Source: Lachnospiraceae bacterium (GTDB taxonomy: Bacteria > Bacillota > Clostridia > Lachnospirales > Lachnospiraceae). Taken from it: a DNA stretch of 64,000 nt. The notes under the pieces are model-generated. The model worked only from the letters and a program-made list of their open reading frames with translations, had not been told where the DNA came from and made no database searches. Shown piece after piece: positions 12,325 to 63,155 of the stretch (position 1 is its first letter; each line of letters starts with the position of its first letter). Location of the stretch: assembly GCA_017634455.1 (NCBI GenBank), contig JAGBNK010000035.1, positions 1-64,000 of the forward strand, given 5' to 3'. The position numbers were made by a program, and so were the translations under genes.

Positions 12325-12364
12325 GTCATCTAATTCAACTTCCTCTAATATAAAGAACATTTAA

Positions 12365-12512
12365 AAGCCGATACCCTCGCAGTTAGCTCAACCCAGGCGA
12401 CCTCGCGGCACCCGGAAAATCAAACTTAGTGCTGCTCCATTCCTGACCTGACACGATTCGTAAGCATCCGTCGCGCAAGACCCAAATCTCAACGCCACTT
12501 ACGAAGGCCGGC
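12365..12512 (-). ncRNA. ffs: Signal recognition particle RNA
   Basis: The minus strand contains the universal SRP RNA helix 8: GTCAGGT, then a GGAA tetraloop, then the AGCAGC internal-loop strand (around 12428-12455). The predicted transcript of about 150 nt begins GCCGGC and ends CGGCTTTT, so the two ends pair. A good promoter lies immediately upstream. The RNA binds Ffh and targets membrane proteins to the Sec translocon. The tadA-SRP RNA neighbourhood is common in Firmicutes. Ends are estimated. Confidence 0.9.
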
Positions 12513-12518
12513 TCTTGT

Positions 12519-12547
12519 ATTCTATAATCTGACCAACTAAATGTCAA
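12519..12547 (-). promoter_or_regulatory. SRP RNA promoter
   Basis: The minus strand has -35 TTGACA at 12542-12547, a 17-base spacer, and -10 TAGAAT at 12519-12524. This predicts a start at about 12512, at the GCCGGC that begins the RNA. Confidence 0.8.
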
Positions 12548-33621: not shown

Positions 33622-33903
33622 AAAAAAGTCCCTATCTCCTACATGGAAGATAAAGGACGAAAAATCGTGGTACCACCTTTATTCATATATACCTCACAGT
33701 ATATATCTCATCGAGTTACTATCATAACTACCAGCAACTATAACGTGCGCCAACCCGTCTTACCCTACTGTTAATTTCAGGCAGCCCCTCCGGAATGTAT
33801 TCAATTTACCGACGCATCAGCCTCGCACCACCCGGCATCTCTCTCATCACATCCGACATAAATCTACTTGTTTCCATCTCTGGGTTTTCTAAATTCAATT
33901 ACG
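33622..33903 (-). promoter_or_regulatory. T-box leader of tyrS
   Basis: The minus strand carries a full T-box leader of about 280 nt. The T-box core AGGTGGTACCACG is at 33666-33678, with UGGU able to pair with the ACCA end of tRNA-Tyr. A TAC specifier in GAATACATTCC is at 33797-33799 and is followed by A as expected. The terminator hairpin ends at a T-run (33622-33658). Uncharged tRNA-Tyr should stabilise the antiterminator and turn on tyrS. Confidence 0.93.
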
Positions 33904-51284: not shown

Positions 51285-52655
51285 ATGAGTGAATTTGATA
51301 CAATATGCGCCATAGCTTCTGCTATGACAAATAGTGGTATTGGAATTATAAGAGTTTCTGGCGAAGATGCCATTGAGAAAGTCGATAATATTTTCCAGGG
51401 AAAAAATAAATTAACAGAAATGGATAGTCACACTGTATCCTATGGTCATATTGTCTTGGATAACAAGATAATAGATGAGGTTATGGTGCTTGTTCTTCGT
51501 GCACCTAGAACTTATACCAGAGAAAATACTGTTGAAATTGATTGCCATGGTGGAATTATTGTAATGCAGCAGATTCTAAAAGCTGTAATTGCTCAGGGTG
51601 TAAGACCTGCTGAGCCTGGTGAATTTACTAAGAGAGCTTTTCTAAATGGTAGAATTGATTTAAGTCAGGCTGAATCAGTTATGGATATTATTGATTCTAA
51701 AAGTGCTTTGGCTTTAGAAAATTCCAAAAATCAATTATTTGGACTTCTGTCCAAGAAGATTAAGGAAATGAGAGCTTCAATTATATATGAGATTGCTTTT
51801 ATTGAATCTGCTTTGGATGATCCTGAGCATATATCATTGGATGGATATGAAGAAAAACTTCGTCATAAGGTTATTAGTTTAGAAAATGATATTAATAGAA
51901 TGATTAAAAGTGCTGATAATGGTTCTATGATAAAGGATGGAATCAAAACTTCTATTATAGGAAAGCCTAATGCTGGTAAGTCATCTCTTCTGAATCTATT
52001 GTCTAAAAAGGAGAGAGCAATAGTAACTGATATTGCCGGAACTACAAGAGATACTCTTGAGGAACAGATAATGCTTAATGGTATATCACTTGTAATTATG
52101 GATACAGCCGGTATTCGTCAAACTGATGATGTGGTTGAGGCAATTGGAGTTCAGAAAGCTATTGATACAATTGATGAAGCTGATTTAATATTGTATGTGG
52201 TTGATGGTTCAACTGATTTAGATGAAAATGATCATCAAATTATTGATAAAATTAAGAATTCTAATGTAATAGTACTTCTCAATAAATCAGATTTGAATTC
52301 CAAAGTTAATGAGGATGAAATTTCTAATCTGGTAGATGGTCCTGTAATTACATTTTCTGCAAAAAATGGTGATGGACTTGATATATTAGAAGATAAAATT
52401 GATGAGATGTTCTTCTCTGGAATTCTATCAGATGATCATGAGATATATATTACAAATGCCAGACATCTCAATGCACTGACTAATGCTTATAATTCTATGA
52501 AAAATGTAGAGCAGAGTATTGATATGTGTATGCCAGAGGATTTTCTGTCCATTGATTTGATGGAGGCTTATTCGCAATTAGGATATATTATTGGTGAATC
52601 TATAGATGATGATTTGATGGATGAGATATTCTCTAAATTCTGTACTGGTAAGTAG
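51285..52655 (+). CDS. mnmE: tRNA modification GTPase MnmE
   Basis: This 456-residue enzyme, with MnmG, modifies the wobble uridine of several tRNAs. It has an N-terminal formyl-THF-binding domain, a helical domain, an inserted Ras-like G domain with GKPNAGKSS, DTAG and NKSD (about 225-375), and the essential C-terminal CTGK. Length is normal. Two structured elements separate it from its partner mnmG. Confidence 0.96.
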   Translation: MSEFDTICAIASAMTNSGIGIIRVSGEDAIEKVDNIFQGKNKLTEMDSHTVSYGHIVLDNKIIDEVMVLVLRAPRTYTRENTVEIDCHGGIIVMQQILKAVIAQGVRPAEPGEFTKRAFLNGRIDLSQAESVMDIIDSKSALALENSKNQLFGLLSKKIKEMRASIIYEIAFIESALDDPEHISLDGYEEKLRHKVISLENDINRMIKSADNGSMIKDGIKTSIIGKPNAGKSSLLNLLSKKERAIVTDIAGTTRDTLEEQIMLNGISLVIMDTAGIRQTDDVVEAIGVQKAIDTIDEADLILYVVDGSTDLDENDHQIIDKIKNSNVIVLLNKSDLNSKVNEDEISNLVDGPVITFSAKNGDGLDILEDKIDEMFFSGILSDDHEIYITNARHLNALTNAYNSMKNVEQSIDMCMPEDFLSIDLMEAYSQLGYIIGESIDDDLMDEIFSKFCTGK

Positions 52656-52712: not shown

Positions 52713-52832
52713 ACCTTGTATGTCTATGACAGAATCGCTTTCGCTACGGTAAAAACGCAACAGTACTAAATTCGCACTTCGTGCTCATTAAGTGCTGGCG
52801 TTTTTAACGTTTCTTCTATAGACATACAAGGT
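52713..52832 (-). repeat. Structured inverted-repeat element A
   Basis: This 120-bp element is bounded by perfect 15-bp complementary arms (52713-52727 and 52818-52832). Inside, read on the minus strand, it has an AAAAACGC/GCGTTTTT stem continuing as CAGCACTTA with TTAGTACTG, an apical GCAC-GAA-GTGC hairpin, and a side hairpin GC-GAAA-GC with a GNRA-type loop. It shares this core with element B nearby, in opposite orientation. No T-run follows and no frame is open through it. The family is not recognised. Confidence 0.8.
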
Positions 52833-52951
52833 TTCCCTGGGTAAGAAATATTCATATATAGTTTTAAAAGTAACTAATACAAGAAATATTTTTTACTAAA
52901 AAATAATAAAATTGGATGGGATAGTAATTTATTAATTTCTTCCATTTGCGA

Positions 52952-53086
52952 CAGATTATATAAATAGTATTCTAAGAAAAAACCTTGAAAACGACAGCAC
53001 TTAGCGAATGCGTTAGCATGAGCTTAGTACTGCTTCGTTTTCAGGTAGCGCGAGCAGTTTTTCGAGAATACTATTTATATAATCTG
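52952..53086 (+). repeat. Structured inverted-repeat element B
   Basis: This 135-bp element is bounded by perfect 22-bp complementary arms (52952-52973 and 53065-53086), unrelated in sequence to those of element A. The core has an AAAACG/CGTTTT stem, CAGCACTTA with TTAGTACTG, an apical ATGC-GTTA-GCAT hairpin, and a side hairpin GC-GCGA-GC. The paired bases differ from element A in compensating ways. It ends 100 bases before mnmG. Of the rest of the mnmE-mnmG gap, I see nothing in 52833-52951 or 53087-53170. Confidence 0.8.
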
Positions 53087-53186
53087 GACAAATTTATTTA
53101 ATCAATAATATTTAACAAGATTATTTAATAAAGACATTTAGCACAATAAGATTAAATTAAAAAAGTGATTTTTAGAAGGAGTAGAT

Positions 53187-55073
53187 ATGTCTGTAGTTGA
53201 AGAAACATATGACGTAGTAGTAGTTGGAGCCGGTCATGCTGGTTGTGAAGCAGCATTAGCATCTGCAAGACTTGGATTAAATACAATTATATTTACAGTA
53301 AGTATGGATTCAGTGGCAATGATGCCTTGTAATCCAAATATTGGTGGAAGTTCTAAGGGACATCTTGTAAAAGAGATTGATGCTCTTGGAGGCCAGATGG
53401 GAATAAATATTGATAAAACATTTATCCAATCTAAAATGCTGAACAAGTCAAAGGGTCCAGCAGTTCATTCTCTTAGAGCACAGGCTGATAAAGCTGCTTA
53501 TTCCATGGAGATGAGAAGAACTCTTCAAAATACAGATAATCTTACATTAAGACAGGCTGAGGTTTCTGAAATTATTGTTGAAGATGGAGCTATTGCAGGA
53601 GTGAAGACATTTTCCGGAGCAATATATCATTCCAAAGCAGTTGTGTTATGTACAGGAACTTATCTAAAAGCCAGATGTCTATATGGAGATGTAATTGAAC
53701 ATACAGGTCCAAATGGTTTGAAAGCTGCTAACTATCTAACAGATTCTCTTGTAGCAAATGGAATTGAGATGTACAGATTTAAAACTGGTACACCAGCCAG
53801 AATTGATGGAGATTCAATTGATTATTCCAAGATGGAAGAGCAATTTGGTGATGAGAGAGTAGTACCTTTCTCATTTACTACAAATCCTGAGGATGTGCAG
53901 ATTGATCAGGTTTCATGTTATCTAACTTATACTAATGAGAAAACTCATGAGATTATCAGAGCTAACCTGGACAGATCACCAATGTATTCTGGAGTTATTG
54001 AAGGAACAGGTCCTAGATACTGTCCATCCATAGAAGATAAGGTTGTAAAATTTGCTGATAAGAATAGACATCAATTATTTATTGAGCCGGAAGGCCTCAA
54101 CACAAATGAAATGTACATTGGTGGAATGAGTAGTTCTCTTCCTGAGGATGTACAGTATGAGATGTATCACACTGTTCCAGGTTTGGAAAATGCTAGAATT
54201 GTAAGAAATGCTTATGCTATTGAATATGATTGTATCAATGCAAATCAGTTGTATCCTACTTTGGAATTCAAAAATATCAGAGGATTATTCAGTGGCGGAC
54301 AGTTTAATGGAAGCTCAGGTTATGAGGAGGCAGCTTGCCAGGGATTAATTGCAGGTATTAATGCTGCTTTGGAAATTTTAGGAAGAGAGCAGGTTGTTCT
54401 TGATAGATCTCAATCATATATTGGTGTATTGATTGATGATCTGGTTACAAAGGAAAATCATGAGCCTTATCGTATGATGACATCCCGTGCAGAATATAGA
54501 TTACTTCTTCGTCAGGACAATGCTGATTTGAGATTAACTCCAATTGGTCATGAAATCGGTTTGATTTCTGATGAGAGATATAATTGGGTTGAGACCAAGA
54601 AGAAGTTAATTGCCCAAGAGATTGATAGAGTTAAGCATACTAATGTGGGAGCGAGAGCAGAAGTTCAGGAGCTTCTTGAATCTTATGGAAGTATTCCTCT
54701 TGATCATGGTGTAACTATGGCGGATTTAATTAGAAGACCTGAGTTGGATTATGATAAGTTAGCTCCAATTGATAAGGAAAGACCTGATTTACATTATGAA
54801 GTAAGAAAGCAGGTAAATATTGAAATCAAGTATGAAGGTTACATTACTCGTCAGCAGAAACAGGTAAATGATTTCAAGAAGATAGAATCCAAGAAGATTC
54901 CAGAAAATATTGATTATGATGAAGTAGGAAGTCTTAGAATAGAAGCCCGACAGAAGTTAAAGGCTTTAAAACCTCTTAACATCGGCCAGGCTTCCAGAAT
55001 AGCAGGAGTTTCACCTGCAGATATTTCTGTATTGCTTGTTTATCTGGAGATGATTAATAAAAATAATAAATAA
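53187..55073 (+). CDS. mnmG: tRNA uridine-5-carboxymethylaminomethyl modification enzyme MnmG
   Basis: This 628-residue FAD enzyme (GidA) is the MnmE partner. It has the N-terminal dinucleotide motif [17 protein letters not shown], the [21 protein letters not shown] segment, the GidA signatures [13 protein letters not shown] and [17 protein letters not shown], and a C-terminal helical MnmE-binding domain. AGAAGGAG precedes the ATG. Confidence 0.97.
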
Positions 55074-61247: not shown

Positions 61248-63155
61248 ATGAGAGAGAAAACAAAGCCTGAAAGACAAGAAAACAAAAAGAGAGATAGCAT
61301 TGTGAAAACCAAGATGATTATTGCTTTCACAAGTGTTATTGAGATTCTCTTCATGATTTTGGAACTGTATTTTATGCTTAAAGTGGAAAATGCAATTCCA
61401 ATGATAATTGTGATTGCTATCTGTATGGCAGTGGTATTATTTGTGCTGGTTACAGAGGCTATTGAATTATCTCAGCGAAATAAAGAAAAAGATAGGCAAG
61501 AGTTTGAGGATTTGTATAAAGCTCAGAAAGCTTCTTATATAGCTCTTAAGAAATATTTTGATGAAATTGCTGATAGATTAAATATTATTGAAGAAAGTGC
61601 TGATTATCGAGAAGAGATTATCAACGCTCAGAAGGCAGTAGCCAAGGTTACTATAAATAGAAGTAAGGAAAATACAGATGCTCTTATGAATTCAAATGAT
61701 GAATTGATAAAGCATATTTTCGGATTTCAGGAGAAGATTCAGGAAAATAATGATGAATTAATTCGTCAGAATGAGGAAATGCTTCTGAAGACTAAAGAGG
61801 AATTGTTGCAGCAGACCAAGAATGATATTGAGTCATCAAATAGCGGAATGCAGAATCAGTTCGAGATGCTTCAGTCAAAATTACAACAGATGCAGCAGGA
61901 GATAAATGCGCTGGATAATAAGGTTGCTATTCCAGTTGTAATGCCAGCTATGCCACAGGAGCCAGTTGCAGCACCAGTGATGGCAGAAGAGCCAGCTGTA
62001 GAGGAAGTTCCAGTAGAGGAGCCGGTAGTTGAAGAAGCTGTTGCAGAGATGGTTGAGGAACCAGTAGCTGATATTGAAGAAAGTGTTAGCGATGATGATA
62101 TAAGCGACGATGATGTGGCTGCAATGTTGGAAAGCCTACAGGCTGATACAGAGAATATGGCTGCAGAGGAAGAAAGCCAGGCTGATGAAGTAGATGATAT
62201 GTCTACAGAAGATATTGATGCTATGTTGGCTAGTCTGCAGGAGGAGCCAGTTATAGAAGAGGCTCCAGTAGAAGAAGTTGCAGTTGAGGAACCTGTAGTA
62301 GAAGAAGCTCCAGCAGAGGAAGCTCCAGTTGAAGAGCCAGCTGCAGAAGATCCACTGGCAGCATTTGACACATCAGATCCAAATAAGCAGCTGTCACCAG
62401 ATGAAATTGCAGCAATGTTTGCAGCATCAGGAGATGCAGCACCAGCAGATGAAATTGTAGCAGAGGAGCCGGAAGTAGAAGAGGTTCCAGCAGAAGAAGC
62501 TCCAGTTGAAGAGTCAGCAGCAGAAGAACCAGCAGAAGATCCACTGGCAGCATTTGACACATCAGATCCAAATAAACAGCTGTCACCAGATGAAATTGCA
62601 GCAATGTTTGCAGCATCAGGAGATGTAGCACCGGCAGAGGAGCCAGAAGTAGAAGAAATTACAGAAGAGGCTCCAGTTGTAGAGGCTCCAGTAGAAGAAG
62701 TTGTAGTTGAGGAACCAGCAGAGGATCCACTGGCAGCATTTGATACATCAGATCCAAATAAGCAGCTGTCACCAGATGAAATCGCAGCAATGTTTGCAGC
62801 ATCAGGAGATGCAGCACCGGCAGAGGAGCCGGAAGCAGAAGAAATTACAGAAGAGGCTCCAGTAGAAGAAGTTGCAGTTGAGGAACCTGTAGCAGAAGAG
62901 CCGGTAGTTGAGGAAACAGCAGTAGAAGAGCCAGCAGTAGAAGAACCAGCAGAGGACCCACTGGCAGCATTTGACACATCAGATCCAAATAAGCAGCTGT
63001 CACCAGATGAAATCGCAGCAATGTTTGCAGCAGCATCAGGGGATGCACCAGCTGAGGAACCAAAAGAAGAGAAGCCACCTATGCCGGAATTATCTGATGA
63101 TCCAAACAAGCAATTGTCACCAGAAGAGATTGCAGCACTATTTGCAAATGTGTAA
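61248..63155 (+). CDS. Acidic repeat membrane protein with FliM-like short motifs
   Basis: This 635-residue protein has two membrane helices (about 22-42 and 48-70), a coiled coil (75-225), then a very acidic Glu/Pro/Val/Ala-rich C-terminal part. That part holds four near-identical 29-30 residue units containing DPNKQLSPDEIAAMFA, one truncated unit at the C terminus (QLSPEEIAALFANV), and two diverged ones (DISDDDVAAMLESLQ, MSTEDIDAMLASLQ). These resemble the FliM N-terminal CheY-binding peptide (LSQxEIDALL). Function is unknown. ATAGGAGAAG precedes the ATG. Confidence 0.75.
   Translation: MREKTKPERQENKKRDSIVKTKMIIAFTSVIEILFMILELYFMLKVENAIPMIIVIAICMAVVLFVLVTEAIELSQRNKEKDRQEFEDLYKAQKASYIALKKYFDEIADRLNIIEESADYREEIINAQKAVAKVTINRSKENTDALMNSNDELIKHIFGFQEKIQENNDELIRQNEEMLLKTKEELLQQTKNDIESSNSGMQNQFEMLQSKLQQMQQEINALDNKVAIPVVMPAMPQEPVAAPVMAEEPAVEEVPVEEPVVEEAVAEMVEEPVADIEESVSDDDISDDDVAAMLESLQADTENMAAEEESQADEVDDMSTEDIDAMLASLQEEPVIEEAPVEEVAVEEPVVEEAPAEEAPVEEPAAEDPLAAFDTSDPNKQLSPDEIAAMFAASGDAAPADEIVAEEPEVEEVPAEEAPVEESAAEEPAEDPLAAFDTSDPNKQLSPDEIAAMFAASGDVAPAEEPEVEEITEEAPVVEAPVEEVVVEEPAEDPLAAFDTSDPNKQLSPDEIAAMFAASGDAAPAEEPEAEEITEEAPVEEVAVEEPVAEEPVVEETAVEEPAVEEPAEDPLAAFDTSDPNKQLSPDEIAAMFAAASGDAPAEEPKEEKPPMPELSDDPNKQLSPEEIAALFANV
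62349..63155 (+). repeat. Coding tandem repeat units in the acidic membrane protein gene
   Basis: Copies at 62349-62435, 62538-62624, 62724-62810 and 62955-63044, and a partial copy at 63098-63155, encode the DPLAAFDTSDPNKQLSPDEI unit. They are nearly identical at DNA level, while the spacers between them vary in length and sequence. The fourth carries one extra Ala codon. Confidence 0.93.

Follow-up and report, generated by a model that had tools for sequence, protein, structure and literature searches.

In MITEs, the TIRs are normally the conserved part of the element. Transposition by Y1 enzymes should leave no target duplications, and the ends of IS66-family elements start with GTAA. Insertions of the IS66 family are accompanied by 8-bp duplications (PMC3281130). 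Template switching between inverted repeats homogenises the arms and inverts the spacer (PMC8604942); it also creates and repairs hairpins, with apparent compensatory changes (PMC8794818).

We analysed two hairpins, A and B, located between mnmE and mnmG in a 64,000-nucleotide stretch of Lachnospiraceae DNA, hereafter the window (Table 1). The original prediction had described them as two copies of one unrecognised structured element in opposite orientations, and our reading of the sequence agrees with its positions, its orientations and its perfect arms of 15 bp (A) and 22 bp (B). Once A is reverse-complemented, the AAAACG/CGTTTT stem, the CAGCACTTA/TTAGTACTG pairing, the apical hairpin and the GC-GNRA-GC side hairpin all align with B, and the claim of a common core between arms that are unrelated in A and B was borne out. 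Folding z-scores of the two elements range from -8 to -11, none of 200 shuffled sequences being equally stable. Both lack coding capacity and measure at most 135 bp. The Rfam search, HEARO/OMEGA-type RNAs included, gave no match at A or B, in line with the element having been called unrecognised, and other copies gave only weak matches to plant miRNA precursors, below the gathering score. A literature search on such Lachnospiraceae repeats and on their end motif found nothing relevant; the family is uncatalogued. The ortholog of A was found in two other species of the genus (G001 and G002) and that of B in G001, the latter being missing in G002; both elements are therefore old. The arms of B differ from those of the G001 ortholog by a single pair change, A-T to G-C. 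Elsewhere, the window holds a tandem-repeat coding region rich in Glu, Ala, Pro and Val (61955-63146) with a recurring DPNKQLSPDEIAAMFA motif.

Table 1. Position, strand and basis of the features of the window
Feature	Position	Strand	Basis
Element A, whole hairpin	52713..52832	- (core reads on - strand)	Sequence, alignment with B, fold z -8 to -9.5, covariance-model match
Element A outer arm, 15 bp	52713..52727	.	Perfect complement of 52818-52832; direct sequence reading
Element A outer arm, partner	52818..52832	.	Pairs with 52713-52727; direct sequence reading
Element A conserved core	52731..52814	-	84-position covariance model, E 9e-23, 100.9 bits; A is a seed member
Element A side mini-hairpin of core, GC-GAAA-GC on - strand	52737..52744	-	Sequence
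Element B, whole hairpin	52952..53086	+	Sequence, inverted-repeat detection, fold z about -10
Element B outer arm, 22 bp	52952..52973	.	Perfect complement of 53065-53086; direct reading
Element B outer arm, partner	53065..53086	.	Pairs with 52952-52973; direct reading
Element B conserved core	52978..53061	+	Covariance model, E 9e-20, 89.5 bits; B is a seed member
Element B side mini-hairpin of core, GC-GCGA-GC	53048..53055	+	Sequence
mnmE, 456 aa, upstream gene (context)	51285..52655	+	ORF list; identity from recognised sequence
mnmG, 628 aa, downstream gene (context)	53187..55073	+	ORF list; orthologs in G001 and G002
T-box leader	33650..33889	-	Rfam
Bacterial large SRP RNA	12357..12544	-	Rfam

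The further copies anticipated in related genomes were found in number. BLAST with the core of B retrieved more copies, both from its own genome and from two congeneric species. A covariance model built from nine cores over 84 positions, with A and B in the seed, counted 20 copies in the window genome (G000), 21 in G001 and 7 in G002. A survey of Lachnospiraceae sampled at about one genome per genus gave matches in 89 of 299 genomes, with 13 to about 146 copies each in 16 of these. Given these copies in the same genome, in the genus and in 89 of 299 genera, A and B are not a product of chance. A second model, run on a class-wide sample of 391 genomes, yielded 10 positives, all of them Lachnospiraceae, and zero copies outside this family. 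Exact-core matches in named records belonged to Lachnospiraceae or Eubacteriaceae MAGs, one Agathobacter, one Eubacterium and three stretches from one further bacterium. Such matches were also present in 14 stretches of viral contigs, about as many as estimated by chance (18 fixed bases with a variable gap), and the phages and plasmids searched gave no match. Copies are commonly paired, ~130-430 bp apart and mostly in opposite orientation (L036, L037, L038, L042, L050, L060, L067, L123, L124 and L024/L029, as well as A/B).

Presence of the hairpin varies among close relatives. At four sites (L195, L202, L170 and L165), the whole hairpin is found in G088 and absent in the sister species G302 or G301. 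Neither arm is present at the readable empty sites, for which reason insertion into a pre-existing hairpin and an inverted target duplication were both rejected. A truncated remnant was left in G302 at L203 and L222, and further truncations were seen in G000/G001. The element is missing from outgroups at L203, L165 and L202, which makes gain likelier than loss there; at L195 the empty site belongs to the closest relative, which suggests that precise loss occurs too. No target duplication was seen at some of the empty sites of the G088 genus.

Clearer traces of insertion were found in other genera. In G269, GTAACAGTTCAGCC forms the ends of many hairpins, with exact 8-bp repeats on either side; copies with GTAACAGTTCAG ends are bordered by TAATAATC, TTTTCCAT, GATAAGAT, AAAATAAC and GTTTGTTT. 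The end motif GTAACAGTTCAG, common to G269, G076 and G117, was counted 37 times in G269 vs 2 for the reversed control. A second end type of G269 has repeats of 9-10 bp, G053 harbors the 8-bp target duplications GACAGCAA and TCTCGCAT, and the flanking repeats of G076 agree at 7 of 8 positions. A systematic scan for repeats at arm ends was positive for 8 of 99 copies, 3 of which are palindromic artefacts within arms (null: 6 of 1959 mismatched pairings); it detected such repeats in G269 and G053, and recovered L099, L102 and L104 again. TIRs at the arm ends together with short target duplications in several genera thus mark insertion there by a transposase acting on the ends. In the window's genus (G000, G001 and G002), A, B and the other copies showed no target duplication or terminal motif, the scan giving only an internal palindromic artefact in B; it is through the homologous core that they are classified with the family and that the mechanism is extended to A and B. 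The right arm of copies in this genus is often followed by GGAY (CTGGAC, CCCGGA, ACCGGAT, AGCGGAT), as for B at 53086-53090, perhaps an end or target motif.

From outside to inside, each copy consists of arms of ~13-110 bp, a three-way junction with the side hairpin, a stem, a middle helix and a variable apical hairpin, the conserved core extending outward into the junction. The middle helix, CAG(C/T)ACTTA/TTAGTACTG, has a conserved T-T mismatch in addition to the C-A mismatch named in the original prediction; the latter is usual and, in the cores of A and B, reads G-U on the opposite strand. Covariation of the core, expected from the two copies, proved strong: both sides vary in 23 of 25 core pairs, with a score of 0.599 vs 0.197 for shuffled alignments, and 2130 of 2289 pair cells are Watson-Crick. 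Of 86 unique cores, 85 have a side hairpin with a GNRA loop on a closing C-G pair, which suggests a strand-specific role of the core. Identity between cores within one genome is 72% in the old set of G000 and 95-99% in G269 and G088. Orthologs diverge by 3.0% in the core, 4.2% in the arms and 4.8% in the flanks.

The arms, found in nearly all of 99 copies, bear directly on whether these elements are leader/attenuator elements or structured non-coding RNAs, whose arms would covary because selection on the RNA fold preserves the stem. The strong folds, the two-sided changes in the core and the near-invariant GNRA loop all favour such RNAs. However, selection on one RNA strand should leave more G-U than A-C on it, whereas the ~3600 arm pairs of the 99 copies include 113 G-U and 106 A-C. 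As a control, 14 tRNAs from the same DNA gave 8.9% G-U and no A-C, a result that the tRNA finder itself favours. In the core, both types are rare (37 G-U vs 15 A-C of 2,289 cells), and a single column pair next to the apical loop supplies 20 of the 37 G-U cells; without these the counts are 17 vs 15. Copies in intergenic gaps are independent of gene direction, 42 being on the strand of the flanking genes and 49 on the opposite one. Moreover, 13 ortholog comparisons from the G088 genus, nine between copies of like orientation and four between flipped ones, gave 77 one-sided differences, 2 two-sided Watson-Crick differences and 4 two-sided non-Watson-Crick ones, so arm pairing is not maintained by slow compensation. 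Between copies of one genome, arms are 61-66% alike (56% when shuffled) and match their own partner at 77-92%; in L181/L209, and in L195 compared with G301, ortholog arms differ strongly yet remain complementary within each copy, as if re-made in one step. The covariation is real, yet it is poor evidence for RNA. An RNA reading of the arms was thus rejected on the G-U and A-C balance, the lack of strand preference relative to genes and the one-sided ortholog decay; with the missing Rfam match and the target duplications at arm ends also against it, structured RNA is an unlikely account of the elements. The original prediction had taken covarying helices as a sign of selection on RNA or ssDNA structure, which is not supported as regards RNA in the arms; the core may still have a minority RNA or ssDNA role, based on its GNRA-type loop. 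More improbable again is a REP/BIME-like system in which a Y1 (RAYT/IS200-type) transposase uses single-stranded hairpins as its substrate. Intergenic location, frequent pairs in opposite orientation, a palindromic single-strand structure and a GTAG ahead of the side hairpin in many copies would all suit it, but GTAG is not conserved across genera, and the target duplications are foreign to Y1 transposition. The Y1_Tnp domain (PF01797) is found in 170 of 299 genomes, with a distribution that does not follow that of the element; at E<=1e-5 it was undetected in G039, G062, G076, G088 and G117, which carry 70, 72, 87, 16 and 13 copies. Y1 transposase was accordingly rejected as general partner because the gene is missing in several element-rich genomes.

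The search for a mobilising enzyme covered the genes flanking the copies and the end motif in G269, where no transposase with matching ends was found. No gene family recurrently adjoins the copies, and a search at up to 3 mismatches gave no sequence elsewhere in the genome from which the arm of a recently inserted copy could derive. Twice in G269, GTAACAGTTCAG motifs paired at a spacing of 1.8 kb were considered as an autonomous parent, and both candidates were rejected. One (L261) consists of two separate hairpins; the other (L262) is an IS of the IS4 family that has inserted into a core and is flanked by an ~11-bp repeat of its own. This IS (L262:404-1999, on G269:C9) lies in the apical loop of a core copy, encodes a 438-aa DDE transposase (NF033592), is bordered by the ~11-bp direct repeat GCACTTACGCA and has ATGCCATTAAGTTAAG ends; a preference for the loop is possible.

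Some copies are inverted in place between colinear flanks, as seen in metagenome assemblies, both in the window's genus (L030/L032, L040/L025) and in that of G088 (L176/L196, L176/L212, L211/L213, L181/L209, L195/G301). From these comparisons, we infer that template switching acts on these hairpins. Once inserted, a hairpin would be a hotspot of replication template switching, during which one arm could be copied onto the other, the core flipped in place and parts deleted. Arm copying of this kind would keep the two arms of a copy complementary while letting them differ from those of other copies, and selection on RNA pairing would not be needed. Arm sequence can also be duplicated directly: in the mnmE-mnmG gap of G002 (L013), the right arm of the A ortholog (ATATATAAGTGTTGAACCTAGTAAATTGAATA...) recurs in a tandem duplication of ~57 bp that lies downstream of this ortholog. 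At L008/L032 (G001:C17:3470) and L030 (G000:C37:21380), a second, related inverted repeat (GGGCYATGRGCCTATGT) lies outside the arms; it looks as though part of an arm had been doubled on each side.

We therefore regard A and B as old copies of a Lachnospiraceae-wide family of MITE-like transposable elements, which are small, palindromic and non-coding and share a conserved structured core, with a probability of roughly 0.78. A non-autonomous mobile element was among the options originally listed, and it is this one that copy number, presence or absence in close relatives, and the TIRs and 8-bp target duplications of related genomes sustain. The DDE transposase of a resident insertion sequence would act in trans on the ends, and DNA-level copying and decay are the best-supported source of the arm covariation. 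A MITE family would not usually combine one core with several end types and duplication lengths, and template switching alone does not fully explain cores that are 99% alike next to arms at 66%. A tentative further possibility is that the core itself is the replicating unit, a selfish or host-recognised structured DNA module riding hairpins with different terminal repeats and transposases, whose arms are rebuilt at or soon after transposition. It is rather doubtful that the core is simply a DNA site recognised by the host, e.g., by a nucleoid, repair or replication protein, and kept by selection or gene conversion, with hairpins and MITE ends as its vehicles. Such a site would be shared by different end types, as is the core, and would account for the 99% likeness of the G088 copies; similarly, 6 of 9 colinear ortholog cores have 0-1 differences in 85 bp while flanks average 4.8%. 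However, the remaining three have diverged freely, with 4, 5 and 11 differences; species also differ through deletion or truncation of copies, and copy number varies greatly among genera. Most cores with 0-1 differences and a few with many suggest selection or conversion on some cores.

Strong covariation is commonly read as proof of a functional RNA, and this family exhibits strong covariation without any sign of RNA strand selection in the arms, hence a practical class of false positives for structured-RNA discovery in gut Firmicutes. As a multi-copy family, it is also a natural assay of template switching, with many natural loci in close species for timing arm copying, core flipping, truncation and hairpin insertion. 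A further question that it poses is why a single folded core has been retained across elements whose ends differ.

Compared with known systems, the elements resemble MITEs in being short, non-coding, intergenic and of high copy number, in their TIRs and target duplications (G269, G053, G076) and in their presence or absence among relatives. They differ from MITEs in that arms and ends vary by copy and genus whereas the central structured core is conserved, in that a parental insertion sequence was not found here, and in that the window's genus is without visible duplications. Like the REP/BIME sequences of RAYT systems, they are intergenic imperfect palindromes in many copies and frequent inverted pairs; unlike them, they have no link to Y1, have target duplications and carry much longer arms. 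One end type starts with GTAA and has 8-bp duplications, as in the IS66 family, but other end types start differently and the likeness is limited to end shape and duplication length. With template-switched inverted repeats (PMC8604942, PMC8794818), they share concerted arm changes and a spacer inverted in place, whereas the spacer here is a repeated, conserved and mobile core present in hundreds of loci.
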